Below, one piece after another: positions 3,167 through 58,769 of a stretch of 64,000 nt of DNA (positions are counted from its first letter, which is position 1; every line of letters starts with the position of its first letter). The notes below the pieces were generated by a model, which did not search any database, was not told where the DNA came from, and saw nothing but the letters and a program-made list of their open reading frames with translations. The translations under genes were made by a program, and so were the position numbers. The stretch is from Ophioderma brevispina. Lineage: Eukaryota > Echinodermata > Ophiuroidea > Amphilepidida > Ophiodermatidae. The stretch spans positions 1 to 64,000 of the forward strand of contig JAMKCH010001639.1 in NCBI GenBank assembly GCA_023653785.1, read 5' to 3'.

Positions 3167-4396
3167 CTAGATTGTTTCATGTTCTTTTTGAAGGCTTGCA
3201 TACACTGACTTTTCTCTTCCATCGTTTTGTAGCTCCATGTACCAGTGATCCACTGGAGACAAATGCGTTTCATATCCCCCATTTGAATCAAAGTCCATAT
3301 TGGCAGATACTTCACATTGTGTAACTTTATTTTCATGCTTCTCCGTTTGTGCTTTGTGATTTTCATCAACTTCCATATATCCGGGTTCATCATGCAATTC
3401 ACATGCAGTTTTTTGTTCGCGAGAAACTATTTTTTTTGGAGTTGTGTTTGTAAGTTTAGACCTTTCCTGCTTATTTATTTGTGCCCTTTTAATCCACCTT
3501 TTTACAAAAACCAGTGCCAATAAGATAGCAACGATCAAAACAATGGTACAAATCAAGTATATGAGTGTCATGTTGTCAAACTTATAATTGCGATTTTGTT
3601 TCGTTGATGTTTCAGGAGTTACTAACATTTGTACTGCAATTGGCCCAATGGAACATTCCTGGCTAGTTGAAGGAAAAGCCGTACTGATAATGCTACATTT
3701 GAATACCACACCGTTGTCTTTTTCATTAAGAGTATGCGTTATTATGCTGATCAAGTGAATTCCATCTTGGGTCACGGTTTGACTCTTTGGAATGTCTCTG
3801 TTATCGTTTCGATTCCATTGTAGAGTAATTGAAGGTTTGCCATCCGGAGACGAGCATGTAAGCGTGATTTCTTCTCCTGCATAATAGCTCAACCTTTTCT
3901 CACTCAAAGAACAAATAGGAAATTCTTCTGGTGGCAAATATGTTTCTGGTGCTGGTGTAACGTCTAGGGCAATAGAATCTGCTGCAATAGCATTAACATT
4001 CCCACTAGGATTAACAGTTAACACGTAACAGGAGTAAGTACCATCATCGGTTTCTTCATTCACTCCAATGATGGTCAGATGATATGGAGTTGATCCATCC
4101 TGCTGTGGTGGAAGAATGTCCAGAAATAAATTGTCTGTGATACCCATTACGAGTTGGCCATCGCGAACTAGCACAACGTTTTTATTAGTCCTGCTATCAA
4201 CCCGACTCATTCCAATTTGTTGGTTAGGATTATATTCCCACACCTTGCATTCGAAAGCAGTCTGACTACCGGCATTTACCGGGTTGACGGTGAAAGATAC
4301 TTCCACTCGGGTTTCAGCAAGGCTGAATGTTAATGTCGATATGCATACAAACAATCCGATAAAGAAAGTTTGGTATTGAATGGAATTTGATGCCAT
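3167..4396 (-). CDS. Two-Ig-domain type I membrane receptor with paired YxxL tail (receptor 1)
   Basis: This is an intact 409-residue single-exon reading frame. Residues 1-27 form a hydrophobic signal peptide ending SLA. The first Ig-like domain has Cys50 and Cys123, the latter in a TDDGTYSC motif typical of V/I-set strand F. The second has Cys181, Trp194 and Cys234, plus an extra possible disulphide pair, Cys162/Cys248. A transmembrane helix spans about 277-298 and is followed by KRWIKR as a stop-transfer signal. The tail of about 110 residues carries Tyr340 (YMEV), Tyr375, YMEL at 386-389 and YASL at 399-402. The two YxxL motifs are nine residues apart, within ITAM spacing; SVYASL also fits the ITIM consensus. 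The role inferred is cell-surface recognition with tyrosine-phosphorylation signalling. It lacks the Thr-rich stalk of its paralogs, and its ectodomain is very different from theirs, while the tail is clearly related. No ligand can be named. Confidence 0.85.
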   Translation of the reverse strand: MASNSIQYQTFFIGLFVCISTLTFSLAETRVEVSFTVNPVNAGSQTAFECKVWEYNPNQQIGMSRVDSRTNKNVVLVRDGQLVMGITDNLFLDILPPQQDGSTPYHLTIIGVNEETDDGTYSCYVLTVNPSGNVNAIAADSIALDVTPAPETYLPPEEFPICSLSEKRLSYYAGEEITLTCSSPDGKPSITLQWNRNDNRDIPKSQTVTQDGIHLISIITHTLNEKDNGVVFKCSIISTAFPSTSQECSIGPIAVQMLVTPETSTKQNRNYKFDNMTLIYLICTIVLIVAILLALVFVKRWIKRAQINKQERSKLTNTTPKKIVSREQKTACELHDEPGYMEVDENHKAQTEKHENKVTQCEVSANMDFDSNGGYETHLSPVDHWYMELQNDGREKSVYASLQKEHETI

Positions 4397-4564
4397 TTTA
4401 ACTGTACTTAAGGTTGTTTAGCTGCCAATATCGCTTTAAATTGCTGTAGAGGTTAAACAAGTCTGGCAATTGCTGTACACTGCGTTCGCATAATAGATAT
4501 ACTTCACTTATTTCCTTGTGTGAGGATAAAGTATTATATTGGTACTTTTGTCTGGAATTTTAGG

Positions 4565-4730
4565 TCAAAAGCAAAGGCTATTGACCCGACAGTCGGCTCA
4601 ATAATACGAAATGACTATCGGTCTGACTGTCGTGTCGATAGCGGTCAGAGGCCGCATACACTATTTACCCGGCAGTCGGGTCGATAACTATTCCGCATTA
4701 TTGAGCCGACTGTCGTGCATTTTATTCAAC
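4565..4730. repeat. Inverted repeat upstream of receptor 1
   Basis: CGACAGTCGGCTCAATAATA near 4587 is mirrored by TATTGAGCCGACTGTCGTG ending near 4717. Shorter copies of GTCGGGTCGATA-like sequence lie between the arms. The hairpin lies about 190-330 bases before the start codon of receptor 1. It could be a small MITE or part of the promoter region; nothing decides between these. Confidence 0.6.
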
Positions 4731-4859
4731 CGACTAAAGGAGAAAGTGGTTGAAAGCCGACCTTGTGTAGTGTCTAGTGAGGCAGTACTGCCCCTGCTTT
4801 TCGATTTTGGACCTATAGTGGGACAGAGTAGTAAAGACATGTGAAAATAAACAACCAGT

Positions 4860-5900
4860 CAGTTACAGAGAACACCCGGCGATAAATTAACAAAATACAT
4901 CGAGTAGGGCAGGCACAACAAAGAATGCTTTGGGCACAACTAGTCAGGCTTGTTTATTTTCTTCTGCCGCTGCATGACACAATCAAAAATGCGCACGGGA
5001 TTTCAAAAGGAAGTTTTGGGATAACCCGGTCAGGAGGGCGATACTCAGATTTGATCATGACCGTCGACGGGAAGGGAAGGTGCTGCTGGAGCATCGGAAC
5101 CTAGCGAAAATCGCTTTTAACCCACTACACGGCAACTCGTCTGTTATTTGAATAGATGGGTTGACATAAATTTAGGAGTATGTATATTCTTGTTAAGGTG
5201 TTCCACTGTATAATTGTATTATTAAGGTGTATTTAAAAGTGTTAAAATTATAATGTGTCATTAGTATCTGTTTGGGTATAATGCTCAAGTGATTTACTAA
5301 GTTAAAACATTTATCAAATGTACATGTATAAGACCATTTATCAAATACGCATAAGACCATCTATTTAATCTGTATTTGCCTTAATGTTTCAATACTGTAT
5401 TGGTTTATCTTGTTCTTTTTAAAAGGGATCTCGTGTTTGCGTGTTCTGATATGATTGTTGATTATTATTTGTAGTTGAAATTTTGCTTGATACATGGATG
5501 GGTGATCAACTTTGTCATCAGTGTATGATATGTATAATTATGAATTGATCAGTATATCTTGTGAAGCTGTGTTTTTGTAGATGCATGTTTTCTATGTGTA
5601 TTGTTAAAATCAATTGGTTTATCTTGTTTAATACATGGATGAGTAATGATCTGGTTCATCAGTGTATGATGTGTATCTATTTATAATTGTTGTAAATTGA
5701 ATGGAAATTAAGTTTTAATATTGCGTCGTTTTTTGATATATAATGATCTGTTTAAATACTGTTAACTTTTAAAAAATGTGACTGGAATTTACTGGGGTGT
5801 ATGTTTTATAAAGGTTTTGAATTTGTTAAAAAGTTAGATGTATTTTATCTTAATGACACGATATGACACAATTGTGTTGAGCTGTCGTTAAATTTTAATA
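4860..5900. other. Non-coding stretch, possible retroposon 3' region
   Basis: The sequence is AT-rich and ends in TTTTAATACTCACTC followed by a tetranucleotide tail. A simple-repeat tail after an AT-rich 3' region is usual for some LINEs and SINEs, but no coding remnant was found upstream. Confidence 0.3.
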
Positions 5901-5938
5901 CTCACTCACTCACTCACTCACTCACTCACTCACTCACT

Positions 5939-5985
<47 letters not shown>

Positions 5986-6000
5986 GGGGGGGGGGGGGGG
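5901..6000. repeat. Composite tract: (CTCA)10, then A37, then G23
   Basis: Ten perfect CTCA units at 5901-5940 run straight into 37 A (5941-5977) and then 23 G (5978-6000). Each tract is easy to see; the abrupt chain of three pure tracts may partly be a sequencing or polishing artefact. Confidence 0.9.
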
Positions 6001-6649
6001 AACCCTCTGCCGCAGTCGATGATCGGCGAGCAATCATTACTGGAGAATTTTTTTGAAAACTCCATATACGAACACGTAAAAGTGTAAAAGTATATTGCAT
6101 AATTACAACATGTTCCGGCTGTCTCCGCTGTGTATTTGTTGCTGTTTTCGTTAAATACGAAGTGTTTGTACATCGTTATGCGTTCAGCTTTAGTGCCCAA
6201 GACTGCCCAGTGTGGGAAATAAAGGATGAAAGTTTGACTAAATTTGAACGTGTTGACCCGGGGGGCCGTCTTGGATTTTCGTTGGGCACCCATGATCGTT
6301 CCAGGAGCTCTGAAACTAACGGGACCAACTTTCCGTAAAAATATACCGGGCCCCTAATGGGACCAGTTTTGGTGAAATTATACTAGTTTTTCAGTGAAAA
6401 TTACACCCAACGGTACAGCAGTAATTTGACATCCTTTCTGTGCTATTTTGAATATATTTTCCACTAGTATTATCCCAGTCATATACTCTCTTTTGAAATT
6501 CCACTTATAATGTATTATAAACATCTTTACTTGTTTGCAAAATAGTTTTGATTAATATTGCAACAATTAATTTTTAACTAATTATTTATCATATTGTTTT
6601 TGCTGTATTCTATGAATAAAGATTGAAGATAATTTGCAGTGAGATTATA

Positions 6650-8599: not shown

Positions 8600-8621
8600 A
8601 AAAAAAAAAAAAACAAAAAAA

Positions 8622-8665
<44 letters not shown>
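8600..8665. repeat. A-rich homopolymer tract
   Basis: About 65 bases of A with single C and T interruptions near the left end. It is flanked by repeats of CCAAATGG/CCATTTGG-type sequence (8.40-8.53 kb) that recur at 11.84-12.06 kb. Confidence 0.85.
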
Positions 8666-8667
<2 letters not shown>

Positions 8668-24609: not shown

Positions 24610-25679
24610 TCTAATGGTCTATTTAAAGGAGGGATGAATCGGTTTGACAGCATTATTTTGTGAATGCTGTATTTTGGGGAAGAGAAAACTGCAAGAGTGG
24701 TGAGATCCACGTCAAGCGCTGTGTGCAGTGGTTTCTGTCACCGATTACGTAAAAGGTGAAGGGGCCTAATATTACTAGGGGCCTTTGATATAATGATGGT
24801 AACACTCGATAATGTTAAGATGCTAGTAAAAGGAGCAAGCCTGGGGCGGTTCATGTATATCATCCATCAATTGTCAGGTAAGTGGCTAAATAAGTAAGTT
24901 TTGACATGCAAACTTTTAAAATGGCAGAGCAACAATGACAAGCATTGGTTTTTTTTAACCCAAATGCGCCAAAGATGCCATTATACATTAATTTAAACAC
25001 TTATTGCCGGTAGTTCAGGGCAGATATTGTTCTGCATCTGGAATAAGTTTAACTGGCATAAGAGAGACTTGACTCTCTAACATATTTAACAGATTGTTAA
25101 GTCATTCTTATGCTATTTTAATCTCATTGGAATGCCCTTTGTTCTTTGTTTTATCACAAGCCATGACTGTATGGCCATTAAGAGACACTGGCACAAAATA
25201 GTGCGCCCTCTAGATTTTCAAAATTATATTTTTTGGATGTGTTATAAAGCTTTTATATACAATAACCCTCAAGTGGTGAAATATTAAGCCCCAAGCAGCG
25301 TGAGTTACGGGGTAAAGAATGATTTATAATAATAGCGCCGGCGACATTAATTCAGCGAACGACGTAGAAATTGGAAGTGTAACACACAAGGAAAAACACA
25401 GGCCAAGTAACTTGTTGACAGAGCTGTGTTTTTAATATCATGAGGTACCGAGTCTAGATATTCAGTAATAGACAGGATTTGTTGATTAAACGCTTACGGC
25501 AACTTAAAAGTTAGCCTAAGAATCCTGGATGTCTTAGCTTTTTATTTATTAGCGTTGGCGGGGTGGGTCCCCGTGTGCATGAGATGTGCACTAAGCTGAC
25601 TCTTCAGAGCAATCGGACTAGACCCTAGACAAACAAAAAAAGTGAGGGTAGAACTTTTGCCACCCGGCACTTTTTTCCG

Positions 25680-26420
25680 CTAGAGGGCGTTTTCAAAATG
25701 GCCGCCAAAATGCCATTTAACGCCAGTATACAACGTTTCATAGCCAAATATGGGGTGAAATGGTCCAGTTTGTAGTGATTTCCTATATTGTGATGTCAAA
25801 TGTATAGAGCGGTCACACTCACCATTAAATGTATTCTCATTGAGGATGCCTTTTTTTCAAAAATGGCGCCAAATGGAATTTAACACCTCATAATGATGTG
25901 CGCAAAAAGTGGATGAAATGGCCCAGGTTTTCAGTGTTGTTATACTTGATGATGTCAAATGTAACGCGCAGTCACATTCACCACTCAAAAGTATTCCTCA
26001 TTGAGGGCGCTTTTCCAAATGGCGCAAAGCGATTTAACACCTTATAATGATGTTTATAGCCATAAAAAGGGGCAAAATGACCTGTGTTCAGTGTGTTCCT
26101 CATTTGTTGATGTCATTTGTATAGAGCGGTCACATCAGTACTAAAGTATTCGTAATGGAGGATGCTTTTCAAAATGGACTTCCAAAAGGAAATTTAGCAC
26201 CTCATAACAATGTTTTACTAGCCAAAAAATGGGTGAATCGCCCAGTTTCCAGTGTTTGCATATTTGTGGATGCCAAATGTATAAAGCGGTCACATTCATC
26301 ACTTAAATGTATTCCTAAGGAGGACACCGTTTCAAATGGGAGGCCAAATGAGATTTAACACCTTATATACATCTTATTATAGCAAAAAATGAGAGGCCCA
26401 GTTTTTCGTGTTTCCCTATT
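25680..26420. repeat. Left-arm tandem array, five units of about 155 bases
   Basis: Each unit has GAGG..GC.TTTTCAAAATGG, AATTTAACACCTCATAATGA, ATAGCCAAAAAATGGGTGAA, a GCCCAGTTTTCAGTGTT phrase and TGTATAGAGCGGTCACATTC. Units start near 25684, 25838, 26005, 26158 and 26320. Confidence 0.85.
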
Positions 26421-26904
26421 TGTGATTTTGTCTCCATGATTGTTGATACTTTATTCTGTCTAAATAATTGCCAGTTTTTATTTTCTCTTTTGACTTACAG
26501 TTATTTTTAGTGCGGTTGAGGATTTTCTGTTATGTTTCAGTTTAATGATTGATGTTATCCAGTACAATGTTGTTAGGATGAGATTACAATATTAAGTGCT
26601 GACAGGGTTGTGCGCTTGCGCTGCACTTGATGAAGCGAAATGATTTGACGATTTCCTAATGGCCCAAATAGGTAATACTATGGCAATCGCCACTGTAAGC
26701 GTCTCATAGGAGAGAGAAGATTTCTACATGACATACATAGTGGACAGGCTGGCATGTCTGAAAGCCGAAGACAAACTTCTGCAGCACATTGGGGATTTCA
26801 CAGTGCACGACATAGTTTGGAATATGTGTGGAAGTCTGCGTCAGCTGCAAACAGGTTTGATTCTTACAATAACAACATCTTGTGAAGGACTCATGATCGA
26901 AAAT

Positions 26905-27700: not shown

Positions 27701-28199
27701 TTTTTCGAGTCCTTCACCGATTTGTAATTGTAAGAATCAAAGATGATATCAAGCCTGTTTGCAGTTGACACAGACTTCTAAACATAATTAAAAAGCTGTG
27801 TCTGAGAAATCCCCACGTGTGCAACAGAATGTGGTCTTCAGCTTTCAGACATTGGTCATCATATCCACTACGTATGTCATATGGAAATTTTCTCTCCTCT
27901 TACGAGACGATCACAGCGCGATTGTCAATTACTATTACGCTTGCCCATCAGGAAATGTCAACAATCATTTCGCTCCTCGAGGTGGCAGCTGGGCTAAGTG
28001 CACAACCCTATTAGCACTAAGATTGTAATAATCACCAATAAAGAATTAGTACTGAATCAAGATTCTCCTCAATTCAACTGAAACATAACTAGAAAATCAT
28101 TAATATCAATAAATTAACTGTAAGAAAAAAAGAAAATGAAACCGCAATTTGTTAGCTATGAATAATTAACTCACAAATAATGGGGAAAATCAACAATTA

Positions 28200-28945
28200 G
28201 GAAACACTGAAACACTCGGACATTTCACCCCTTTTTGGCTATTAAAACCTCATTATAAAGGTGCTTAAATCGATTGGCGGCCAATTTTAAAAGCATCCTC
28301 CAGAGGAATCATTTAAGTGAATGTGACCGCTCTATACATTTGACATCCACAAATATAGCAAAAACACTGTAGTAAATTAAACATTATTCTGAGGTGCCTA
28401 ATGATTTGGCAGGCCATTTGAAAAGCACCATTCCATACGAATCATTTAAGTAAACGATGTGACCACTCTATACGTTTGACATCAAAAAATATAGGAAAAC
28501 ATTAAAAGCCGAGTAATTTACCCCTTTTAGACTATTAAACATCATTACAAGGTTTAAATCGCATTTGGCGGCCATTTTGAAAAGCGCCCTAATGCGGAAA
28601 CATTGAGTGGAATGGGAGGCTCTATAAATTTTTCACATCAAAAATTAGCAAAACACTGAAAAACCGGGCCATTTCACCCATTTTTGGCTAGTTGTAAGTA
28701 AAAATCATTTATAGTGGTTTAAAATTGCATTTGGCCGGCCATTTTGAAAAGCGCCCTCAAGTGAGGAATACATTCAAGTGGTGAGTGTGACGGCTTATAC
28801 ATTGAAATCAACAAATATGGAAAACAATACAAAACTCAACCATTTCACCCCATATTGTGGCTATGAAAAACGTCGTTTATATGGCGGTTAAATGGCATCA
28901 TTTTGGCGGCCATTGTGAAAACGCCCTCTAGCGCAAATGCCGGGG
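28200..28945. repeat. Right-arm tandem array, five inverted units
   Basis: These are the same units as at 25680-26420 but reverse complemented, with GCGGCCATTTTGAAAAGCGC phrases at about 28280, 28408, 28566, 28734 and 28906. Confidence 0.85.
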
Positions 28946-29219
28946 TAGCAAAGCAAAAAGTCTACCTCACTTTGGTAGGTCTGATTAGTGTAGTCCCTGC
29001 TGTCTGTGAAGAGTAATTAGGCACATATCCTGACACGGGGACCCACCCAGCCCACACGGGACTCAAATGTACTCTTGCTTTTTGGTAATTATTTTCTGTG
29101 TTAAAAATATCTCTATTCTTCGAATGGCAAGATTATCATTTGCGAGCAAATGAAAACATATTACATATTTTTCTGAAAATGTGCCAGTGCCGCCATAAAA
29201 AAATACATTTAACCCTTGT

Positions 29220-31409: not shown

Positions 31410-33025
31410 CGTCGCTATGAGACTGTTTGCAAATATATGGTCCAGGACCATATTTTCGGGCCAGAATCTCACATTAGCAATTGGCACATGCTCTTTGATA
31501 TGGGTCGGTCCTTGCAGTCGGTTGATTCTTCAGCTCCAACGGCTTTGGAATAAGAAAATATTCCTTGGCACCATATAAACAGATCAGAATTTTTCGACGA
31601 GATTACCCTTTACGTGTTAAACCAATGGCGACATCTAAAATTGGAATTTCTTGGCCGCCCTCCCTTGGCTCTTTTTAATGTACTAGGATACATTTCTTAT
31701 GTATATCTTTATTTAGTCACCCTGGTATATCCCTAACGTCCCTTAAAACCTTCAAAACCCACCTGACGACAAATCTCGGAGTGGGAAATTGCTCCTAGAT
31801 CTGACAACAGAAATACCGCTACCTCACTTTTTGCGGTGATTGTAATTTTTTTCTCCAGGGACATTAGGGATATTTGACAAATTAAAATATTTTAAAATTA
31901 ATAACTAAGTAATTAATGCACTTTTAAAACCAAACTTGGATTAAAAGTTGTAATAATTAATACTTCGCCTAAAATGCATAACAGTGCATCATTCATGTAA
32001 ATAGTGCCTCTAAACGTAGAACAAATTTTAAAGGCCTAAATTTCTATAAAACCGTATCTTCTGATTTTTTAAATTTCTACTTCGTTTTTCAGTTATTCAG
32101 TAAAAATTATATTGGCTGGCTCGCGGGTATCATGACAAAAAAAATAAAAAATCCAATAACATAATTTCGTCGGTATTGTTCCGGCGGACCGTCTCTTCAA
32201 ACCCCATTAATGTACCTAAAACGTTGTTCGGATTACGTTTGTTAAAAAAAATAGCCATTTACAGACCTGCATGGTTACCATGGTAGCCAGGGTAAGAAGT
32301 TACAGGCGATAAACACATTAAACAAAAAGCAAAACATTGCCAATGCGGACGTAACGCTAGTAGGAGTAGGCCTAACATTCAATTTCAAGTAATGTTGCCC
32401 GCCATAATTGATGTTGTACAGTCTGGCATTTAAAATTATGTTTCCAAATCTATTTTCTTTCGCCTTTGAGTCCTTTTTAGGGACTTTTGGGGCTTTTTGA
32501 AATTTGGAGGGGGGGGGGGGGGCGGGGCTGCCCACGACCTCCGGTTACAGGTCTGATAGCTGATTGTTGAGGCCCTTGTGAAACTAAGTTGAGCGAGCTT
32601 TTAACCTTTAAAAAGAGTTATAGTCATTAAGCTATGATGAAATGAATAAAAGTCTACATTAGCTTTAAATGTAAGATTAAGGCTCATATTAGGCCTACAC
32701 CAGGAGGAATGGAGGAGTTGACGAGTTAGAGATGCTGACAAAAATGTAAGCGAGAGCGGGAATATGGACATTTTACGAAATGAAAGGGTAACCTTAACTT
32801 TTCATGGGGACATTGGGGAATGCTAATTTTTTAACAAAGGAAGGGAAATGACAATTTTTTTCCGGAAAAAAAAGATTGAAAGCCACCCGGAACGGAAGCT
32901 TACCATTTCCCATGCACCCACGTAACACCTATGACCGGGTCCCTAAAACCAACAAAACGAAAAGTCAGATTAACTACGCTTTGATTATGAGCGCATTACG
33001 CCAACGAAACATTTTTTTTAAATAG
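31410..33025. other. Non-coding stretch, partly duplicated
   Basis: 31.70-31.87 kb (ATCCCTAACGTCCCTTAA, CCTAGATCTGACAACAG, AATACCGCTAC) recurs at 44.34-44.53 and 55.58-55.72 kb and marks the 3' flank of the receptor copies. A G18 run lies at 32506-32523. No gene was recognised. Confidence 0.6.
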
Positions 33026-33029
33026 GATA

Positions 33030-34365
33030 ATCAATTGTTACGTATTCTTTTCGCAACAGAATAGGGCATGCCGCGTGTTTTTCCATTCCCATTTTTTGTA
33101 GCTGCATGACTCCAATCTACCGGCCTGGCACAAACGGGTTTCATATCCATCTTTAGAATGTCTTATTCGACTGTGTGTTGTGATTTGGTGATGTCATTCA
33201 ATTGATTATTATAACTATCATGGACGTTTGATTTACGCCATCGGATACCAGAATAAATGATGATCCCAGTAAAGAGTTATAATGCAACAAATGTACTGAA
33301 AACTCCAGAAACAGTTGCCGTTGAAAATTGTCCGAATAGCCATTTGACTCATCAGATGTTATGAGATGAGTACTGGAGATAACGATTGTCCACAGGGATG
33401 TGACTCTCCGTTAGTTTCCATTCGTCGTTAGTTAGAAGCTTGCAGAGATACGCGAATCCAGTGTTGTAGGCATAGGTTGGTTGACAGTTTTCAGTTAGTT
33501 TCTATTTTCATTGTAGCAGAGAGGTTGGTAGGCATGGTGGTAGTAAATGTGCGTGGTGTTGGCTTGGTTGTAGGCGTGGTGGTTGTTGTTGGCATTTGCT
33601 GGTGTGGGAGGTATATAAGGTATTGCATGGGAAAAGTACACATGTCTTGATATTCTGTAAAAAGCTTCATTATAATATTACATGAAACTTCACACCCGTC
33701 ATCAGAAGTGAATAATGCCACCATACTCACTTCTGAATTACAATCTTATCAAAAGGAAGTGTTACTCGGCACGTGGTTATGCCACAAGCATCACTTCTAC
33801 TCGCCAATTTAATGGAGGATGCGGCTTCCCAAAGCAGGGGGAGAGTTGCACAGTCAAAGGCCACGTTCCTCAAATAAGTTAACGTGATTGGATCAATCTG
33901 AAATAGTAGTGGATAAATATGGGGTAGATCTGTGTAAAATAAAGTACATCCAGGTTGATTGTCTGTTCGGCTAAAGTGGTTGTTCCAGGGTGTCTTAGTA
34001 AGTAATGTTATCGTCACCCATTATATGATGACTTGACTTGTAGGGATGAAACAGTGTTGTCACTATGCCTCATGGTGCTCCATCACTTTGCAGCTGACAG
34101 AATCCAGGGGAATCATCCTTTGAAACAAACACTATCGTAGAAGTAATAGGATTCTTTGTAATTGATTACAGACTGGGTATTCATGAAGTCATATCCGGAT
34201 ACCATCACAGAAATACACAGCTACTGCATCTCCCTTTCTATTCGCTCTCGTGATGCCGAATACACTCACAGTTACTTGTTGACATGGAGATCTTCTTGAT
34301 TGTAGGCAGAAGAACAAGACGCTCACAATTAAAGACTAGGTTACTTACATTTCGACAATCACAAA
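33030..34365 (-). pseudogene. Decayed paralog of the two-Ig receptor (copy 2)
   Basis: The sequence aligns by eye along its whole length with the genes at 44.8 and 57.4 kb, in the same orientation. Recognisable blocks are the C-terminal tail (33.05-33.18 kb), the membrane-proximal region (33.2-33.4 kb), the Thr-rich stalk (around 33.55 kb, MPTTTTTPTTKPTP), the second Ig domain (33.65-33.95 kb) and the N-terminal leader region (34.25-34.36 kb). Many small insertions and deletions break it into short frames of at most 96 residues, and several Ig cysteines and tail tyrosines are lost or out of frame. The flank beyond the start (34.37-34.9 kb) also matches the other copies, so it arose by DNA duplication and not by retroposition. 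It is unlikely to make a receptor. Confidence 0.8.
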
Positions 34366-34369
34366 TAAT

Positions 34370-34900
34370 AGTGCTTGCCAAACAATTAAAATCCAAAAAT
34401 CGCTTTATTCAGGTTCGAAAAGTACAACTTTGAAAAAACTCGCGGGTATTAAATGAATGCTGAATATAATTAAAAAACCCATACTGTTTTACTATTTAAA
34501 AAGACCACTGTTCTGTCTTGGTAGCGATAAGTTTGATACAAATCCGCTTTGTCCATGTTCAATGAATCAATTGTCATGCCTTCATTTCCAATACAGGTTC
34601 ATTCTAGGCGAAAATTGAAAATAGTCTATCGTTCCTAGGTGATCTAAAATGGCATTCTATAAATCAGATGCAATAAAAAGTATTATACATGTTGTGGTGG
34701 AAAAGTTGAAACCCATTACATCAAAATTGCTTGTGACATTGTGTGTCTTTGTACCCTTTCCTGCGGTTCACTGCTTTTTTCTACAATTAACTGCATTTTA
34801 CGTGTCATATAATTGTTGTTTTCCCCCAGTTTACGGAGCATTACTAAAGAGCATCATCGCATCTAGAACCGCAAAATATGTAAAGGAAAAGTGAACATTT
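34370..34900. repeat. Receptor 5' flank, duplicated with copies 3 and 4
   Basis: It matches 46100-46720 and 58770-59380: the leader-proximal GCCAAACAATTAAAATCC, the AAGTTTGATAC and CAATACAGGTTC blocks, TGCGGTTCACTGCTTTTTCT and ACTAAAGAGCATCATCGCAT. The conservation upstream of the start codon suggests that promoter sequence was copied with the genes. Confidence 0.7.
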
Positions 34901-37054: not shown

Positions 37055-38320
37055 TGCAGGTGACATGTCGTGGATGTCCTTGAGAAGCAGAACCTTATAA
37101 ACTACATTCTGATTGGAAGCCTATGCAGTTGGCAGAGTCAGAAAGCAAATACAGGTCCATGATCTTCGGCAAAAATATGTAATCCGGCATTTTGTGCTGC
37201 AAAAATGTTATTTTCTAAACGCTTTTTTTTTGGGGGGGGGGGAGGAATGCATTTTCGGAAACTTACTATTTGCTTTCATGTAAAAAAAGTAGACATTGCG
37301 TGCGTTTGTAAGATTATCAGCAATGTCGGGAAATTTGGAAATTCCTGGGATTATGATATAATTGAGAAAGGGGATTTGGGTACTTATTTGAGGTGTCGCA
37401 TAGTTACGCATTGATAGCAAATTTACGATTACAGCCGGGGCTTTTCGTTAGCAAAATTATGGAACAAATGCAACAACGTTATACTGAAAATCAATACGTT
37501 AGGTACACGAGGGTTCAACTGAAAATATATTGCTTCTTTCGAATATTTGAGGAGCAGTTTCAAGTGCTAATCTTTCAGATTTAGAACCTGCATTAGGATG
37601 AATGTGTGTAATGATTGACTGTCACGCCAATATTCTAGAAGGTAACAAAACGAGGACTATAATTCAGCTTGAGTCGAAAACTACTGTTAGGTCTCCTTTA
37701 ATTTAGTTCTCTTAAGGATTTATGAAAAAAAATCTGTATTTTTTTCCAATCTATTAAAAATGTTCAATAGAGGTATGCATTATGCATTACCCCTCAGTTA
37801 CTGTACCCGACAATTGTGAGTGAAAATTCTCTGGATTTACGCGATTCTTGTCGTTTCTGCTTTCATCAATTACAATTTCCTGGAGGTTACAAAATTGAAA
37901 AAAGAAGCTTCATAATGAATGGACAACTTTGTGTTTTTAGAGGAGACCTCAAAAACCGAAGAAAAATATTCCTTTCTTGTATTCACAACTAAAGAAAATA
38001 TTCTTTGCTCCTCCACACAACAGAAGAAAAATATTCTTTGCTTGTCCATACGACCACTACTCACAAAAGGTTCAGCGGTTTCATTTCTTTCTGTAAATTC
38101 AGGTTCGACGTTGAAATTGATATGTGTTTGTGCCGATCAGAGAATTACATTTAAAAGAAAATATGTTACATTTTTATAATAATTGTAAGGCTCTGAATTT
38201 ATCTAAGTGGCCAATGTTTCGATATTTGTTTTCGAAAAAAAAAAGAAATCAATTTCTCACCGCAAGTTAAGCTCAGGATGCACACTGCGAGTTAGCAAAA
38301 ATGCCCTTAAAGCCTTTGAG
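37055..38320. repeat. Dispersed repeat A, copy 2
   Basis: This is a near-identical counterpart of 1-1370, with small indels, including an expanded T8G10 tract at 37223-37241. A frame of 86 residues at 37919-38179 is also open in copy 3 but is broken in copy 1. It has no signal peptide or recognisable domain, so coding is not claimed. Confidence 0.8.
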
Positions 38321-38349
38321 TCTTTATAAAACAATAGTCTGTAACCATA

Positions 38350-40330
38350 TATGTAGTCAATTTTTTCTTTTTGTTTTGAATTTTTGTATAGCACGTTTTA
38401 CTTAAATGTTTGGTGATGTGATGTTTTCTCCCTCACATTGATGCATATCACAAAAACATCTGATTACAATTTTTAATGTAATCGTCCAGTCGCTTGGATA
38501 GAAGAATCAAAATGTGTACTAAATTTCGCGGGCCTTTAAATTTCACTTGGGTGATGAGAAAAATAATAATATAATTTTTCGTCTAGATAAAATTCCTCTC
38601 ATTTTGAGGGAGTAAAATGTGCTTAGCCTGGTATAATAACGTTTGCTGAAATTGTCCGTTTCGGAACATTTTTCTCAAGAAGTCGTATCAGGAGATCCTT
38701 GCACCGTTGGAACGTTAGCCATTTCCCTCCAGGGTTTTCTTTAGTTTTTGCTTTTTTAAAAAAAACCAAAAAACATACATTTTTTTTAAAATAGAATTAA
38801 TGCTAATTGACCTAAGGTAACGCGTCGGGGGCCCCAGTGGGCGGAAAATTCCTCCACTCATGAATTCTTTGTCCTTAGAACTCTATGAGTTGCACTGCAC
38901 CGTAATTCTACACAAAGCAATACTCTCACTTATTCCTGTCCTTTATTAACCAATTGCCACTGTCGTGTAAATAATCTAATAGACAAGGCACAATTTGGTG
39001 CAAGCACCAATGTGGCTCGCGCAATGAGATTGTAAGAGGTGCTAGAAAAAAGGAGTCAAATTTGCACTCTAGGATGTCTATCAGTTTGTTCACTTAAATC
39101 AAGAAAACCTCCAAATAATGACCAAAGATACACGAACCCTTGATGGAATGTATTTCGTATGAATCACAGCCACTTCCCATTATTGCTTATTCCCTACTCA
39201 AACCTACTAAGTCAAAATTAACACTTATCCTGGGTCAAATGATGAACTCGGTCCATTTGCAACCGTACATGGGTACCCATTCGGCACTGGAACCTGTCAT
39301 GCACTTTGTCCAGTAAGCGATGCAGTTGATAGCTGTTGAATCGTAGAGACTTTGCGTACTAACCAAGGTCTTAATTAGCACTAACTAAAACGTGGTAAGC
39401 TACTTACTGAGCCACCGGGTGCATATCGGCACATATACCACTCAAGCAGACCGAAAAGTCACGATCATAACCTGTCTCGGTGTGCTTTAGGGGGATCATA
39501 CTTAGGAAAATCTTGTCAATGATTCTGGGAATATTTGGAAAATTTGGTCTGGATGGAAAGCTTAGTAACGAATTAATATAAATCAAAATAAGTTGAAAAT
39601 TGTCCACATGTGTTGAGTTGTTTGCCCTTTTTAATTTCCCGCCCAATAGATTACTCAAAAACGATCCCGCACAAATCCACATCGAATGCAAATGGTGACG
39701 TCAAAGTGATGACCATCCATAATTTACTTCGGTCGTTGTTGTAACCATCATATCGCAGTGTTGCCACTTCAATAATAATTAACCACGAAATGAAAACAAC
39801 TATTTCATTCTGTAACTTTTTTTCTAATTTTATTACTATTTCAATTAATCCATCAATATTAAACGGTGTCAGCAATTAACAATTCGAGTAAAACGTGTTT
39901 GGTTCATCACTTTGACGCCACGAGTTGGGCGCTTTTCATCAATGAATCGTGCGAAAAATCCGCCCGTTTCTTCGTATGTCAAAAAAGCAAAAATTAAAAA
40001 ATGCCTCTATTTTGTTAATTTTCCATCAATTGTATTATTTATGAATGTAATCAAACTGAGCTTGACAATCTTGACATATTTCCTTTACTGGGCAACGTCT
40101 GCCGACGCTAGCCTTCGAATAGGCTTTTCGCGCCCAAATGCAATAAACATACGCTTTTCGTAAAAGCAATGTTCCGAAAGTCTAGCGTCCTCCGACGTTC
40201 CTGCCGATGAGTATGAACCCCTATTAGACCGCAGATTGGCCGTGCGGAGGTGTAGTATCGAAGCATTTGCTCACATTAAGTCCTCAGCTTGGTTGAACTT
40301 TTAGCTGGAGCAGCCACTTATACTATTCGT
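38350..40330. other. Non-coding stretch, left part duplicated at 50.3-50.9 kb
   Basis: 38.34-38.98 kb resembles 50.29-50.86 kb (AACCATATATGTAGTCAATT, TGCACCGTTGGAACGTTAGC). From 39.0 kb on only short frames and no domains are seen. Confidence 0.5.
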
Positions 40331-43945: not shown

Positions 43946-44799
43946 AATAAACAGCTGATTGTGGTTTACACTAGCACAGAATAAACAAAGATCAATAATG
44001 TTTGTGTTTGAGGTCAAACTGTATTGATCATGGTGCACAATATCACGCTTAAAATGTGGGATATTCACCGAGAAAAGGCTTTTTGATCTCAAGTCAGAAT
44101 TTTGATACGCACGTATAGAAATTAAAGAATATATAAAGAGTACTGCCCTGTCTTTAAGTCAAGCCAACCACTTGCAGGTTACGTTTGCATATCCCTGCCA
44201 GTAACAAAAATAAAACAATATGAATTTTTATGATTTTTCGATGTTTCGGATTAGCAAATCACTGCTAATCCCTTTAAGAATCGAAGAACCCAAAACAGGT
44301 TTCTCACATTACAACAGTTAATTTTGGTTCATATGAAGAATCTTATGGTTTCCATATCCCTAACGTCCCTTAACTGCATTAAATTGCACTTTTCAAAATC
44401 ACGGACCGGCCTCTTGGCTTGTTTTATGGGGAAATTGCCCCTAGATCTAACAAGAAAAACACCGCTACCCCCTTTTTTGCGGTGATCGCCAGGTTGGTAG
44501 TCATATTCCTCTAGGGATATAGAGGACAAGGTTGGAATTTTTGCTTAGACTGTAGTTTTAAGACGATGCAATATAAATAATTCCATTTTTATTTCTGTTC
44601 CTAGTTTCTATAATTTCTATCTTGTGACATCGGGGAATAGTTTCCTGGAATGTGTGAAAATACCTTGGGCATTTTAGCGTTAATACCTCCTTCTAATCTT
44701 ATTGTTTGGTAGAATGAAGGTAGAACAAATATGAAATTAAAACACAACGTCAGCATGACGACAGTGGTTTTTGTACTCATTACGCCAAGCAAACACTTT

Positions 44800-46105
44800 T
44801 TAAACAGGACCATTTAGCGTTTCGTATTCTTTTTGCAGACTAGCATACGCTGTGTTTTCCATTCCATCTTTTTGTAGCTCCATGTACGTCCGATGTACTG
44901 TCGGCAAACGCGTTTCATATCCATCATTGGAATTGTTGACTATGTGTAATTGAGGTGGCGTTAACTCAAGAGATTTTTTGTAGTATTCCCGTGATCCTTT
45001 GATTTTACGCATTTGGAATATTAGATAAATGATGACCCCTGAAAGAGTTATTATGATGGCAACTAATGATACCGAAATTCCGACAACAGTTTCCATTTTG
45101 AAACAGTCCGAATTACAATCACATACATATGACTTATCAGACCTCATGAGATGAGTACTGATAATAATCATTTTGTCCACAGGTGACTGCGATTCCCTGT
45201 TACGCCCAATCGTTGTGGATGCAGAAAGACGCGTATTATCCAGTGTTGTAGGCGTAGGTTGCTTGGCAGTTTTTAAGGTGCTTTCTGTTTCCGTGGTAGC
45301 AGAGAAAGTGGTAGACATGGTGGTAGGTAAAAGTGTCGTAGTGTCTGATTTGGTTGTAAGTATCGTGGTTGTTGTTGGCATATTGGTTGTGGGACGTGAT
45401 ATAACTGTTATTGGTGTGGTAGAGCAGCTGTCTTGATATTCAGGAAATGCTTCACTTCTAACATTACATGTAAAAATCACACCGTCATCATCAAGTGATA
45501 ATGCAATACTTAATTCTGACACTATAATATCAAAATGAATTGTTACCTCAGCAGTTGCTATGCCAATACTATCGCTTCTACTCCAATTTAATTGAGGAAT
45601 TGGATTTCCAAACAAGGAGCTGCAAGTCAATGTAAGAACGTCTCCTTCAAAATAATTTAACTTGCTTGGATTAAAATCACATAGTGGATAAAAATTTTGT
45701 AGATCTGGCAAATAAAGTACATCCAGGTTGATTGTCTGTTCGGCTAAAGTGGTTGATCCAGGTTGTCTTAGTACAGTACATGTATATTCACCACTATCTG
45801 ATTTACTAGCCTCATGGATGATCAGTGTCAATATGCCTCCCGGTGATCCATCAATTTGAAGTTGCCAAGATCCAAGCGGGCTGTCTTTAGAAGCAACAGT
45901 ATCAGAACGTACCAGAGATCTTTCTAATGATTACAGAATCAGTTCCAATGAAGTCATCTCCAGATACATCACAGAATATAGCTACTGCATCTCCCTCTTC
46001 TATTCGCTCTCGTGATAACGATATACTCAGAGTGACTTGTTGCGTGGATATCTCCTTAACTTGTAAGAGAACAAGCGACACAATTAAATGACTTAGTACG
46101 CACAT
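44800..46105 (-). pseudogene. Two-Ig receptor with Thr-rich stalk, one frameshift (copy 3)
   Basis: This is a near-complete paralog of receptor 4. The start chosen is the Met at 46105 (MCVLSHLIV), which lines up with the receptor 4 start; a Met ten codons upstream lies in frame but has no counterpart. The frame gives a signal peptide and the first Ig strands, then breaks near 45.88-45.91 kb, where this copy is two bases shorter than receptor 4. From 45831 down to 44800 the frame is open again for 343 residues: the end of Ig1 (SDSGEYTC), Ig2 with its Cys and Trp, a Ser/Thr-rich stalk, a CDCNSDC juxtamembrane cluster, a transmembrane helix and a tail with YMEL, YASL and YETL. Apart from the 2-base deletion nothing looks decayed, so it is either a very young pseudogene or an intact gene with an assembly error. 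Confidence 0.8.
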
Positions 46106-46734
46106 TTCGAAATCACAAATAATACTGCTTGGCAAACAATAAAATCCAAAATCGTTTTATTCAAGTTCGAAAACTACATCTTTGGGAAAAACATTGACAG
46201 GATATGTGTGTGCTGCTGAATATAATTAAAATCCATAATTGTTGTCACTATTTAAATGTACTGACTGTTCTTTGTAGAGTTAAGTTATCGTACTAGCAGA
46301 GCCGCGTTGTCCATTGTCAAGGTAAATCATATCATGCCTTTGTCTAAATACAGGTTCCATTCTATGAGAATATGGAAAATCAGCCTATCGTTCAATGTAT
46401 AAAATGCCATTCTATAAATCCAGATGCAATAAAGGTATACAATGATTGTGGTGGAAAATGAACCATTATATCAATTACGTGACATTGGTGTGTCGTTCTG
46501 TACCCTTTTCTGCGGTTCACTGCTTTTTCTACAGTTCACTGCCTATTGTAAGTGTCATGTAAATTGTTGTTTCTGTCCCATATACCTATACTTGCGACAA
46601 TTCCTGTAGAAGTATCGGTTAAATATATTGGCCTTTGGTTATTTGCCCCAGTTCACGGACCATTATTGAAGAGCATCATCTTCAAATCGAAGAGTAAAAA
46701 GAAGAGTTTTATACCTTTTAACCCGGTGTGAAAG

Positions 46735-49490: not shown

Positions 49491-49494
49491 CGAT

Positions 49495-50285
49495 TATTTG
49501 AAGAGCAGTTTCAAGTGCTAATCTTTCAGTTTTAGAAACTGCATTAGGATGAATGTGTGTAATGATTGACTGTCACTCGAATATTCGGCTAGAAGTTAAC
49601 AAAACGAGGACTATAATTCAGCTTGAGTCGAAAACTACTGTTAGGTCTCTTTAATTTAGTTCTCATAAGGATTTCTGAAAAAAAATTCTGTATTTTTCCC
49701 CAATCTATTAAAAAATGTTCATTAGAGGTATGCAGTATGCATTACCCCTCAATTACTGTACCCGACAATTGTGAGTGAAAATTGTCTGGATTTACGCGAT
49801 TCTTGTCGTTTCTGCTTTCAGCAATTACAATTTCCTGAAGGTTACAAAAATTGAAAAAAAGAAGCTTTATAATGAATGGACAACTTTGTGTTTTTAGAGG
49901 AGACCTCAAAAACCGAAGACAGATATTCCTTTCTTGTATTCACAACTAAAGAAAATATTATTTGTTCCTCCACACAACAAAAGAAAAATATTGTTTGCTT
50001 GTCCATACGACCACTACTCACAAAAGGTTCAGCGGTTTCATTTCTTTCTGTAAATTCAGGTTCGACGTTGAAATTGATATGTGTTTGTGCCGATCAGAGA
50101 ATTACCTTTAAAAGAAAATATGTTACATTTTTATAATAATTGTAAGGCTCTGAATTTATCTAAGTGGCCAACTTTTCGATATTTGTTTTCGAAAAAAAAA
50201 TCAATTTCTCACAGCAAGATAAGCTCAGGATGCACACTGCGAGTTAGCAAAAATGCCCTTAATGCATCAATTTTTTTGTTTTTAT
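49495..50285. repeat. Dispersed repeat A, copy 3 (partial)
   Basis: It matches 37550-38320 and 540-1370, starting inside the repeat at a TTTGAAGAGCAGTTTCAAG junction. The similarity to copy 2 continues past the repeat to about 50.86 kb, showing that copies 2 and 3 were duplicated together with their right flank. Confidence 0.8.
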
Positions 50286-51639
50286 AAAACAATACCTCGG
50301 TAACCATATATAGTCAATTTTTCTTTTTGTTTCATTTTTATATAGTACATTTTACTTAAATGTTGGTGATCTGATGTTTTATCCCTCATACGTCAGCTTA
50401 AAACTCACCTTTTTCGTTAAGCTTTTCATGGCTCATAGCTGTTTGTTTGATTTGTATGTGTTGATTGTTATGGCTCTGAGTTCTCTTGAAGATTTTGCGC
50501 CTTATAAGAACTATTCATTATTATTATTTATTGATGTATATTCGCCAAAAACATCTGTTACAATTTTTAGTAAAATAGATATAACACATTTCCCGGCCTT
50601 AAATTTCACTGGGGTGATAGAAAAATATGAATTTTCTCTGATACTAAATCCTTCAGTTTTGAGGAGTAAATTGCGCTTGAATAATAACGTTTTTTTCTGA
50701 ATTTCATGTCCGAAGCATTTTTTCTCAAGAAATCTTATCATGTGATCCCTGAACCGTTGGAACTTAGCAATTTCTCGCCAGGGTTTCCACTAATTCCTTT
50801 CCTTGTGACAATTGCCATGTGAGTTAAATAGTCTAAAAGACAATATAGTACATTGGGAAATATAACTGATTTGGTTTTAGTTTTTTCAGTATTACAATTT
50901 TGACACCCACGTGTTTTCCAATACTAATTTCCATGAGACTCTGAGAAATCATGGTGTTATTTTTTAAATGTTTCTTGGGTGTTTTATAAGGGTACAAATT
51001 GTCAGGGTAACAATAAAGAGTTTAAATTGGCTTTTAAGAATCTGTTCTGTTTTGCTCATAAGGTTTCTTAAAAAAAGTCTTGATTTCCATATTTACGATC
51101 TTGGGTTTTAGTACAATAGGCGCAAGAAGATCAAGGTCATTATTTATAGAATGAATCCGATTTTGTTGCCAACAGGTTTTAATCGTTCATTAATCATACT
51201 AAATAAGAAAATGTATATAGATCTCTGTGTTTCACCTTTTCTCAGGACTTTTCAGATATGACTAGTGATCTCCCATATACTTCGTATTTTCGGCTTCTCT
51301 ACAGTAAGACAACAATTTTGGCACCATTTTAAAACAAACCGATGAAAGCTTAAATTGTACCCCTGGTTACTTGAACCCGTTTTGTCTGTGTAAGGCTTGC
51401 TACTATAGCCCTATATGGCAATCTACCTTTCGTAATCCCTTGAAAGGTACTGAACATGGATGGTATACTTTAACCATAACTCGACATTTTTTTTGTCTAT
51501 CCACCATATTTGTTTTTTTTCACGCCGAAAACAACGTGACTTTTGGTTTTTTGAAGTCTTGCGCTCGTTTTAAGACCATTTTGAAAAAAATCGGACCTAC
51601 GGTTATGACGCGGCGTTACGTAATCTCACTGCGGTGCGA

Positions 51640-53519: not shown

Positions 53520-53572
53520 ACTATATGTGGTGTGTGTGTGTATGGTGTGTGCTCGCGCGCGCGCGTGTGGTA
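53520..53572. repeat. Alternating GT/CG tract, paralog of 41.74 kb
   Basis: The sequence has GTGTGTGTGTATGGTGTGTG followed by CTCGCGCGCGCGCGTGTGG. It is longer than the copy in D1. Confidence 0.7.
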
Positions 53573-54896: not shown

Positions 54897-55714
54897 GGAT
54901 TTACAGAGGCTTAATAAGAAACTAACCTAAATACATGCATAACAATGGATTGAATACTCATTACACGTATACTATGTTAATTTATCACCAAAATGTCAAA
55001 TAACACCACCAAGACTGGCATAGTACACTATGTGGGATGCGGATTAGTCATTACATTAACAATTTAGAGTGATAAATTAGGAATTAGCATCCGAAATATG
55101 CAAATTGGACTAATTATGATGCCATAGTACGCCTTCGGAATTCATCAACACATTAAATTTCTCTCAGGTCTTGAAGTGGGTTATTAAGGAATCAGGAACT
55201 GAAATAACTGAACTAGTTATTTTGTAATTAGACTACAAAGTTAAAGTGGATGACTCGATTGACACCCCCTCCCTTACTTTTTCCATCAAAATTGAGATTT
55301 TTGTATCAGGAGAAGTTTTTATTTTTCTCATTACCCAGCGAAATTTAAGCCAGAAATGTTTTTTTGATGTTATTAACAACAACGTTTCCAAATGTCGTCG
55401 CTACATAATTTTGTATCCGAAAAACATAATATATCGCCATACTCTAAGAAAAATTGCTACTTACAACATTGTTTTGTAGCTATTGTGGAACCCTCCAGGG
55501 TGACTTTTCAAAAATGGTTCTTAAGAAGCGAAGAACCTAAACAGTTTCTCACATAACTTTCAACAGTTTTGGTTTATGGGAAGAACTTATTGTTCCTTAA
55601 TCCTAACGTCCCTTGACTGCATTAAATTGCACTTATCCAAATCAACAGACCTTCTCCTTGCCTGTTTAGGGGGAAATGCCCCTAGATCCAACAAGAGAAA
55701 TACCGCTACTCACA

Positions 55715-57045
55715 AAATATTTACTGAGTCGGGTGACTCAGATACGTGAATCTTTTTTTGTCTCTGTAGTGATCACTTTGTCTGCTAGCTGAGTCCCTTT
55801 AGTGAGTCATGTTGACAGCAGATGTGATGAGTCTAATGACTCCGATTAAATCCAGTTGAGTCAGAAGACTCAATTTCATTACTTAGTAGTCATCAGTTTT
55901 TTCTTCTGTAGCGACGCACTTGCTTGTGTAAAATGGTCAAAAGACTCAAATGATTGCATGCGGTCTTCTGACTCACGTGAGTTATGCTCATTTCGTGACT
56001 GGATGAGTCATTGATGCACTTATCTTGCCTCATGAGTATGTTAATGCCAGCAACAAGTGAGATCAGATGAGCGGCAGTCCCATGACACAGACTAATTAAA
56101 TGTTTAAACTGGAATTTGATATTGATAAAATAATGAAAATAACGAGGGTGGAGGATGACCCGAAGGTCCTTATGCCTAACCGATGCAGTACACCAGGAGA
56201 TATATAGTTGTGCTCAGCCGGCCGGCCGAAGCTTCCCACAAATTTCACCCAGGATGTGCAATGGGTAGCGTGCATTACAAAAACATGCACATATTTGCAG
56301 CCCTAAAGGCCGAGAAGCAATCCACAATAACCAAAATCTTATGCTTTTCATGAGTCCACTCTTTAATTGAATAAATTCTGTTGTGTCTGATGGTGTATTC
56401 TTAAAGGAAAGGTGCAACGAAGATTTCAAATAAAAGGTGTCCCTAAAAAATGTTAAATTCTGATTTTTGCCCGGATGTAAAACTTTCCATAAAAATTCCC
56501 CATCTTAAAATATTACGCTGAAAATGTTTTCTTTGTACAAATATTGGGAAATTTTTTCATTTCGTATAGGACAAATACGAAATTCAGTCCTATGTTTTAT
56601 ATTGAATATACACAGTCCAAATCAGACTTGTTTCTCCTTTTTAAGCATTTCGGTAGCCATTAACAGGTAAAGCTCTATGAGTGTCTACTATTTAAATCTA
56701 TTATACACAATAGTCTGGGTTCCTCAAAATCTCGTTGCACCTTTAATTATAATCGTATCTGAACGAGGGTGAAGGCCATCGGGACTGTACAGTCAGCTGC
56801 TTTGCACCTGGACCACATTCCTCGCTTTCGTTTGACTCATTTCACATACGACGTGAGTCAAAAGTCGATCTGGACGCATGTGAAGTGTATCCACTGAGTC
56901 AATAACGATGTTTCAAGTGAGTCACTACAACTTTGACTCTGTTTACCAAGTATGATCTTTTCGACTCGTTGTTTCTAGAAATGAGTCAGTTTGCAGCTGA
57001 CTCACGACAAATATGCCCAAATGAGTACTTGACAGAAAATATTTT
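55715..57045. mobile_element. 1.3 kb insertion with subterminal TGAGTC arrays
   Basis: Compared with block D1, where GCTACCCCCTTTTTTGC is continuous near 44465, this copy is interrupted for about 1.33 kb. The ends are imperfect inverted repeats (CACAAAATATTTACTG and, inverted, CACAGAAAATATTTTCTG). About twenty TGAGTC/GACTCA motifs lie in two clusters, 55722-56040 and 56830-57025, leaving the middle nearly free. This layout, with motif arrays near both ends, is known for several cut-and-paste transposons, where transposase binds them. No transposase was found. Confidence 0.7.
56401..56746. mobile_element. Nested MITE, TTAAAGGTGCAACGA family
   Basis: Ends TTAAAGGAAAGGTGCAACGA and, inverted, TCGTTGCACCTTTAA. 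It lies inside the element at 55715-57045. The interior is AT-rich and non-coding. A related end is at 41899. Confidence 0.65.
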
Positions 57046-57443
57046 CTGTGTACCTCCTTTTGTGGGGGGGGCGAAGGATTGTCAGGTTGGTATCATTTGT
57101 CTCAAGGGAAATGTTCGCTATAGAGGACAAGGGTAGAATCTTTTTGCTTAGACTGTAGTTTCAAGACGATGCAAGATAATTCCGTTTTCTTCTTTCTCCT
57201 AGTTTCTATAATGTATATTTGTGCCCATCGGGCAATCGTTTCCTGGAATGTGTGAAAATACCTTGGGCATTTTAGCGTTAATACCTCCTTCTAATCTTAA
57301 TGCATGCCATGAAAGGTAACAGTCGTGGTTACGTACATATTGTTTGGTAGAATGAAGTGTAGAACAATATAAAATTAAAACACAACGTCAGCATGACGAT
57401 CTTGTTTTTCTTTTTTTAAACTCATTACCCCAAGCAATTTTTT

Positions 57444-58769
57444 TTAAACAGGACCATTTAGTGTTTCGTATTCTTTTTGCAGACTAGCATACGCTGTGTT
57501 TTCCATTCCATCTTTTTGTAGCTCCATGTACGTCGGATGTGCTGTCGGCAAACGCGTTTCATATCCATCATTGGAATCGTTGCTTATGTGTAATTGAGGT
57601 GGCGTTAACTCAAGAGATTTTCTGTAGTTTTCCTGTGATCCTTTCATTTTACGCATTTGGAATATTAGATAAATGATGACCCCTGTAAGAGTTATTATGA
57701 TGGTAACTAATGATACCGAAATTCCGGCAACAGTTTCCATTTTAAAACAATCAGAATTACAATTACATACATATGACTTATCAGATATCATGCGGTGAGT
57801 ACTGAAAATAACGTTTACGTTCACAGTTGACTGCGATTCCTTGTTACGTTCAATCGATGTAGATGCAGAAACACGCGAAGCCAGCATTGTACGCGTAGGT
57901 TGGTTGACAGTACTTTCTGTTCTTGTGGAAGCAGAGAAGGTGGTAGCCATTGTGGTGGCAGAGAGGGTGGTAGCCATGGTGGTAGGTAAATGTGTCGTAG
58001 TGTCTGAATTGGTTGTAGGTGTGGTTGTTGTTGTAGGCATGTTGGTTGTGGGACGTGATATAACGGATAATGATGTGGTAGTGCAGCTGTCTTGATATTC
58101 AGGAAATGCTTCACTTCTAACATTACACGTAAACTTTACGCCGTTATCACCAAGTGATAATGCAATACTCAATTCTGATAATATACTATCAAAATGAATT
58201 GTTACCTCAGCAGTTGGAATGCCAATGTCATCACTTCTACTCCAATTTAATTGAGGAATTGGATTCCCAAGCAGTGATCCGCAAGTCAATGTAACAACGT
58301 CTCCTTCAAAATACGTTAACTTGATTGCATTTATCTCACATATTGGATAAATATTGGGTAGAGCTGGCAAATAAAGTACATCTAGGTTGATTTTCTGTTC
58401 AGCTAAAATTGTTGATCCAGGTTGTCTTACTACAGTACATGCATATTCACCATTATCTGATCTACTTGCATCACCGATGAGCAGTGTCAATCTACCTCCC
58501 GACAACCCATCAATACGAAATTGCCAAGATTCAGGCGAACCGTCTTTAGAAGCAACAATATCGTAAAACGTATCAGAAAACTTTCTAATGATTACAGAAT
58601 CGGTTTCCATGAAGCCATCTCCAGATACATCACAGAATACAGCTACTGCATCTCCCTCTTCTATTCTCTCTCGTGATACCGATACACTCACAGTTACTTG
58701 TTGCATGGAGATTTCCTTGATTTGTAAGAGAAGAACAAGCGACACAATTAAATGACTTGGTATGTACAT
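57444..58769 (-). CDS. Two-Ig-domain type I membrane receptor with mucin-like stalk (receptor 4)
   Basis: This is an intact 441-residue single-exon frame. Residues 1 to about 23 are a signal peptide (LIVSLVLLLQI core). Ig1 has Cys46 and Cys111 (DNGEYAC). Ig2 has Cys163, Trp176 and Cys215, with an extra candidate pair Cys144/Cys229 also present in receptor 1. Residues of about 230-325 are a Ser/Thr-rich, probably O-glycosylated stalk holding a near-exact 9-residue duplication (TTMATTLSA/TTMATTFSA). A CNCNSDC cluster at 335-341 precedes the transmembrane helix at about 346-370. The tail has Tyr403, YMEL at 414-417, YASL at 427-430 and YETL at 434-437. The first two are separated by nine residues, as in an ITAM; TAYASL also resembles an ITSM. 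The gene probably encodes a cell-surface immune or adhesion receptor signalling through SH2 proteins; this is inference. It is the best-preserved member of the stalked subfamily. Confidence 0.87.
   Translation of the reverse strand: MYIPSHLIVSLVLLLQIKEISMQQVTVSVSVSRERIEEGDAVAVFCDVSGDGFMETDSVIIRKFSDTFYDIVASKDGSPESWQFRIDGLSGGRLTLLIGDASRSDNGEYACTVVRQPGSTILAEQKINLDVLYLPALPNIYPICEINAIKLTYFEGDVVTLTCGSLLGNPIPQLNWSRSDDIGIPTAEVTIHFDSILSELSIALSLGDNGVKFTCNVRSEAFPEYQDSCTTTSLSVISRPTTNMPTTTTTPTTNSDTTTHLPTTMATTLSATTMATTFSASTRTESTVNQPTRTMLASRVSASTSIERNKESQSTVNVNVIFSTHRMISDKSYVCNCNSDCFKMETVAGISVSLVTIIITLTGVIIYLIFQMRKMKGSQENYRKSLELTPPQLHISNDSNDGYETRLPTAHPTYMELQKDGMENTAYASLQKEYETLNGPV

Follow-up and report, generated by a model that had tools for sequence, protein, structure and literature searches.

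The vertebrate paired receptors (KIR, FcR-like, Siglec-11/16) are clustered type I immunoglobulin (Ig) receptors. Domain shuffling has been proposed for the FcR- and KIR-related receptors in the passages cited here (PMC2413239), and gene conversion is described, in the part of the Siglec work drawn on, as making the ectodomain regions of Siglec-11 and Siglec-16 alike (PMC5701461). Among invertebrates, the passages on Hydractinia Alr describe a cluster of related Ig superfamily (IgSF) genes, about 40 in number and possibly including pseudogenes (PMC11876637), and ITAM and ITIM motifs have been reported in Alr candidate genes (PMC12065747). The same source describes Botryllus FcoR as a multigene set of type I Ig receptors, encoded at one locus, whose tails bear tyrosine motifs, and notes that at some FcoR loci alternative splicing switches between ITIM and hemITAM (PMC12065747). 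In the oyster, CgIgIT2 is an Ig receptor whose tail has a tyrosine motif and which is expressed mainly in haemolymph; the motif is called an ITAM in the relevant passage of the review, and the receptor or IgIT signalling is called inhibitory in two titles of its reference list (PMC11999971).

Four related loci (r1 to r4), all on the minus strand, were found in a 64,000-nt stretch of DNA from the ophiuroid Ophioderma brevispina (contig JAMKCH010001639.1, positions 1 to 64,000), which is referred to below as the window. Their positions are given here, with A and B denoting the two ectodomain types:

3167..4396, minus strand: r1, an intact 409-aa ATG-to-stop ORF in a single exon, with an A-type ectodomain, a membrane helix and a YxxL-pair tail
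3170..3289, minus strand: shared tail module of r1, YETHL...YMEL-x9-YASL
about 33021..34259, minus strand: r2, pseudogene of a B-type receptor
44484..46727, unstranded: duplicated unit containing r3, 83% identical in self-comparison to 57077-59396, with a related unit at 32994-34821 (73-74%)
44800..46105, minus strand: r3, a B-type receptor frameshifted once near 45904, with an intact tail
57444..58769, minus strand: r4, an intact 441-aa ATG-to-stop ORF in a single exon, a B-type receptor
57444..57740, minus strand: membrane segment and tail of r4, a probable conversion tract by its identity to r3

Two of the four copies (r1 and r4) are intact. r2 is a pseudogene, with 21 stops in 413 codons in one frame and its paired motif destroyed; it can be aligned with residues 30-441 of r4. 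r3 shares 75.6% identity with r4 along residues 70-441 of the latter and changes frame near 45904. In the self-comparison of the window, unit 32994-34821 is 73-74% identical to both 44484-46727 and 57077-59396, and judged by these alignments r2, r3 and r4 are tandem duplicates. The protein identity between r1 and r4 is about 28%. The first-pass annotation had described four same-strand paralogs; the four minus-strand relatives are present, but r2 is a pseudogene, r3 is frameshifted and r1 is not a close paralog of the others. The ORFs of r1 and r4 (409 and 441 aa) are uninterrupted, and the wider claim made there, of Ig receptors that lie in a cluster, duplicate, consist of a single exon and have a paired-tyrosine tail of their own, is supported.

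Elsewhere in the window, a repeat occurs at 37540-38435 and 49491-50388 (92.5% alike, about 12 kb apart) and has relatives at the window start (1-699 and 834-1395, 83-92%); a long inverted repeat (25554-26892 / 27707-29055) is 72.7% alike, with internal direct similarity. Ten further ORFs, taken from 86 of at least 80 aa (receptors included), were compared with Pfam at E 0.05, and nine of the ten had no match. The ORF at 60145-60687 gave a sub-threshold GIY-YIG match (E 4e-4) and is presumably a fragment of a Penelope-like retroelement. No tRNAs were found in the window, and no Rfam families at the gathering score.

r1 and r4 each contain one N-terminal and one internal hydrophobic segment (Kyte-Doolittle), in agreement with the signal peptide and single helix assigned to them at first pass, and the internal segments have zero charged residues in their 19-residue core. 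AlphaFold models of both proteins contain two beta domains; a long membrane helix is seen in the r1 model (mean pLDDT 60) and no membrane helix in the r4 model (mean pLDDT 52), where pLDDT falls under 50 at that place. Both models are of low confidence overall; their Ig domains are usable and the stalk and tail are not. Pfam Ig models exceed the cut-off in both r1 and r4, and the structural models agree with a place in the Ig superfamily. The two Ig domains attributed to the receptors are both recovered by Pfam in r4 (two stretches above cut-off); in r1 only the second is, and the first is supported by conserved Cys and DxGxYxC positions and by the AlphaFold model, with its two beta domains and its membrane helix. 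The order in r4 is signal segment, two Ig domains, Thr-rich stalk, hydrophobic membrane segment and a tail with YETRL/YMEL/YASL/YETL; the stalk is absent from r1. Just before the membrane segment lies a three-cysteine cluster (YVCNCNSDCF in r4, YVCDCNSDCF in r3), which could link receptors as dimers. A fold search, made for the r4 model only, returned generic Ig pairs, for example SIRP, nectin-like proteins, CD22, SYG and antibodies, and no homology is claimed from matches of this kind. Sub-threshold Pfam matches (RIFIN, V-ATPase) lie largely in the stalk, membrane and cytoplasmic parts and likely reflect composition; NCBIfam gave one sub-threshold match, in r1 only, which provides no name.

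Relatives were sought in a space of about 5.8 billion proteins, of which the r4 and profile searches scored, respectively, the 7990 and 7994 candidates with the most words in common. The r4 search yielded at least one relative, P0001 (35% identity over 98%), and the r1 search yielded two, P0002 and P0003. A profile of all five proteins recovered at least P0002, P0001 and one distant hemicentin-type nematode protein and missed P0003, a member of its own alignment, so protein searches of this kind lose relatives. No names are attached to P0001-P0003, and the earlier statement that the family could not be recognised as a named one agrees with this outcome: at the depth searched no named close relative was found, only these three unnamed proteins and the distant hemicentin-type one. 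Two scans of viral contigs gave zero tblastn-confirmed relatives. The ectodomain of r1 is 55% identical to that of P0002 and 53% to that of P0003, the A-type ectodomains being 53-56% identical among themselves; among the B-type ectodomains, r4 and P0001 share 42% over 223 aa, and r3 groups with r4. The tails are also of two types, the YxxL pair (r1, r3, r4, P0001) and a long type of 349 and 363 residues (P0002 and P0003, respectively). The r4 and P0001 tails are 54% identical over 52 aa. The two long tails are 49% identical to each other, are unrelated to the YxxL tail, and contain 3-5 YxN and 13-16 PxxP matches, which we take to suggest Grb2/SH3 adaptor coupling.

The YMEL-x9-YASL motif, previously attributed to all four copies, is present in r1, r3 and r4 and destroyed in r2; YETL occurs in r3 and r4, as had been stated, and its counterpart in r1 is HETI. 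In r1, r4 and P0001 the YxxL-x9-YxxL pair has a constant spacing of 9, and the letters of the spacer vary. The ITAM pattern YxxL/I-x6-12-YxxL/I was found in the cytoplasmic tails of r1, r3, r4 and P0001, and in none of r2, P0002 and P0003. The ITAM spacing noted at first pass is thus present in three of the four loci, although a spacer of 9 fits only the wide form of the rule (6-12). When the tails were shuffled (20,000 times each), the pattern arose in 0.4% of cases for r1 and 1.9% for r4, and it is present in 8 of the 234 stop-to-stop stretches of at least 60 aa in the window, three of the eight being receptors. Taken alone the motif is weak evidence; since the same spacing recurs in P0001, it appears to be more than chance.

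A different function would follow if the second tyrosine were an ITIM/ITSM-like site for SHP-type phosphatases and the proteins were inhibitory receptors. The ITIM pattern [SIVL]xYxx[ILV] fits SVYASL of r1, as had been proposed, and LAYENL of P0001, but it is absent in r4, and the first tyrosine of the pair fits it in none of r1, r4 and P0001. The second tyrosine of r3 and r4 lies in TAYASL, which does not match the ITIM and, contrary to the first-pass reading, also misses the strict ITSM; the latter is T-x-Y-x-x-V/I. The ITIM is not kept across the family (r1 and P0001 have it, r4 does not, r3 has TAYASL); by these alignments, it is the ITAM-like geometry that is conserved. Because the pair and its spacing are the common feature, whereas an ITIM is found only at the second tyrosine of r1 and P0001, the ITAM reading is better supported, and we consider inhibitory receptors unlikely.

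YxxL/V is also an endocytosis signal, and by the general YxxPhi rule the motifs listed for these tails fit it as well. They could on this account serve the AP-2 endocytosis or sorting of adhesion or scavenger receptors and have no part in phosphotyrosine signalling, and the ectodomain matches obtained by sequence and fold do include adhesion proteins (nectin-like, contactin, SYG) besides immune receptors. A single YxxPhi suffices for AP-2, however, and a pair held at a fixed spacing of 9 in r1, r3, r4 and P0001 is not expected from sorting signals, which makes this explanation improbable.

The two tail types do not follow the two ectodomain types, as r1 combines an A ectodomain with a YxxL tail. 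Its ectodomain is 35% identical to that of r4 over 159 aa, and its cytoplasmic part matched r4 (E 6e-15) and P0001 (E 1e-5) in blastp, against E 0.19 for P0002 and E 0.03 for P0003. At the nucleotide level, the last 117 nt of r1 (3173-3289) are 79% identical to r4, and 115 nt match r3 at the same level; the r1-r4 match has a sharp edge and starts about 40 codons before the end, and self-comparison found no nucleotide match to r3 or r4 in the rest of the gene. At identical residues, r1 and r4 use the same codon in 20 of 24 cases in the tail and in 29 of 72 in the ectodomain (P=3e-4), a test that is favoured by the tail segment having been delimited by its own nucleotide match, although blastp on the proteins alone also recovers this tail. 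Codon usage would be expected to yield 10.9 of 24 in the tail (P=6e-5, 200,000 simulations), the ectodomain reaches at most 11 same codons in any 24 consecutive identical residues, and pS is 0.33 in the tail and 0.69 in the ectodomain. On the strength of this codon agreement, r1 looks like a mosaic of one ectodomain type with the tail of the other. We conclude from the r1-r4 comparison that, in these two genes, tail and ectodomain differ in their histories. What is exchanged seems to be the tail, a feature missed by the first-pass annotation.

Between r3 and r4, the membrane segment and tail (57444-57740) are 95-97% identical, and identity drops on either side, to 82% in the stalk and 89% in the 3' flank. 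Synonymous changes number 1 of 71 in this stretch against 47 of 243 from signal segment to stalk (P=5e-5), and nonsynonymous changes 12 of 223 against 100 of 762 elsewhere (P=0.001), the regions for this test having been drawn after the genes had been inspected. Such identity is not confined to the tail, as one 120-column interval of the 5' flank (59229-59115) is also 95% identical. In the same membrane segment and tail r2 is 63-69% identical to r3 and r4, no higher than its range elsewhere, and because this pseudogene is not conserved there, the stretch does not appear to be simply slow. Conversion between r3 and r4 over the membrane segment and tail is probable; synonymous constraint is possible but less likely. 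Over all codons pN is 0.114 and pS 0.153, a sign of weak constraint (N vs S, P=0.08; P=0.02 without the membrane segment and tail, P=0.20 within them), and r3 may therefore be dead; that r1 and r4 are intact and have their tail in common with P0001 counts for a functional family. Quite improbable, finally, is vertical descent of a YxxL tail without exchange, with loss in P0002 and P0003 and strong constraint on the tail codons: the r4/P0001 tail is indeed better conserved than the ectodomain, and the r1/r4 tail was picked by its nucleotide match, but amino-acid constraint does not fix synonymous codons, whose agreement exceeds the codon-usage expectation, and the edge of the match is sharp.

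The reading we prefer, to which we give an even chance, is that of a single-exon type I Ig receptor family, most likely of activating immune-type (recognition) receptors, with a tail that passes from gene to gene. The sequences show at least two ectodomain lineages, A (r1, P0002, P0003) and B (r3, r4, P0001), and the short tail module occurs in both. This module may move from one intronless gene to another, through gene conversion or unequal recombination, the sequences being too few to tell direction and mechanism, and varied ectodomains would thereby stay wired to one signalling output. If established ITAM knowledge applies, ligand binding would lead a Src-type kinase to phosphorylate the two tyrosines, and the phosphorylated pair would then be bound by a tandem-SH2 kinase of the Syk/ZAP-70 type. 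As the core membrane segments have no charged residue, a DAP12-like adaptor would not be called for. More tentatively, the tail may be a signalling cassette, about 40 codons long, that is handed from one intronless Ig receptor gene to another across lineages, each new ectodomain thereby being coupled to a single activating output.

Ig receptors with ITAM or ITIM motifs are a known kind in invertebrates, and the proposed tail exchange is the new part; among the literature matches listed, mostly non-subscription papers, none described intronless Ig receptors of invertebrates that exchange their tails. Hydractinia Alr, likened here by description only, resembles the present family in its clustered IgSF genes and ITAM/ITIM-like tails, and the Alr passages (PMC11876637, PMC12065747) make no mention of a single-exon build or of tail exchange. 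FcoR, as its passages describe it, has a V-type Ig, a sushi and two C2-type Ig domains and is spliced, whereas the receptors here have two Ig domains in one exon and a putative exchange at the DNA level; the plan of a sushi and three Ig domains was not found in r1 and r4, where only Ig families pass the Pfam cut-off. CgIgIT2 differs in having five Ig domains against two. The vertebrate paired receptors (KIR, FcR-like, Siglec-11/16) are clustered type I Ig receptors, as are those described here. In Siglec-11/16, according to the passage cited, it is the ectodomains that are alike; here it is the membrane segment and tail, and the ectodomains differ. Pairing of the vertebrate type, with similar ectodomains and opposed tails, was not found in the window, in which tails are alike and ectodomains differ, although the A-type ectodomains, which occur with one kind of tail in r1 and another in P0002 and P0003, would approach it if these proteins belonged to one species. 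The family may add an animal lineage to those with clustered Ig receptors and ITAM-like tails, and bear on whether this coupling is old or convergent. Should the tail exchange hold genome-wide, germline receptors would diversify recognition and keep one output with no exons to shuffle. The cassette, if real, would be the reverse of the vertebrate paired receptors, in which ectodomains are kept alike and tails differ.
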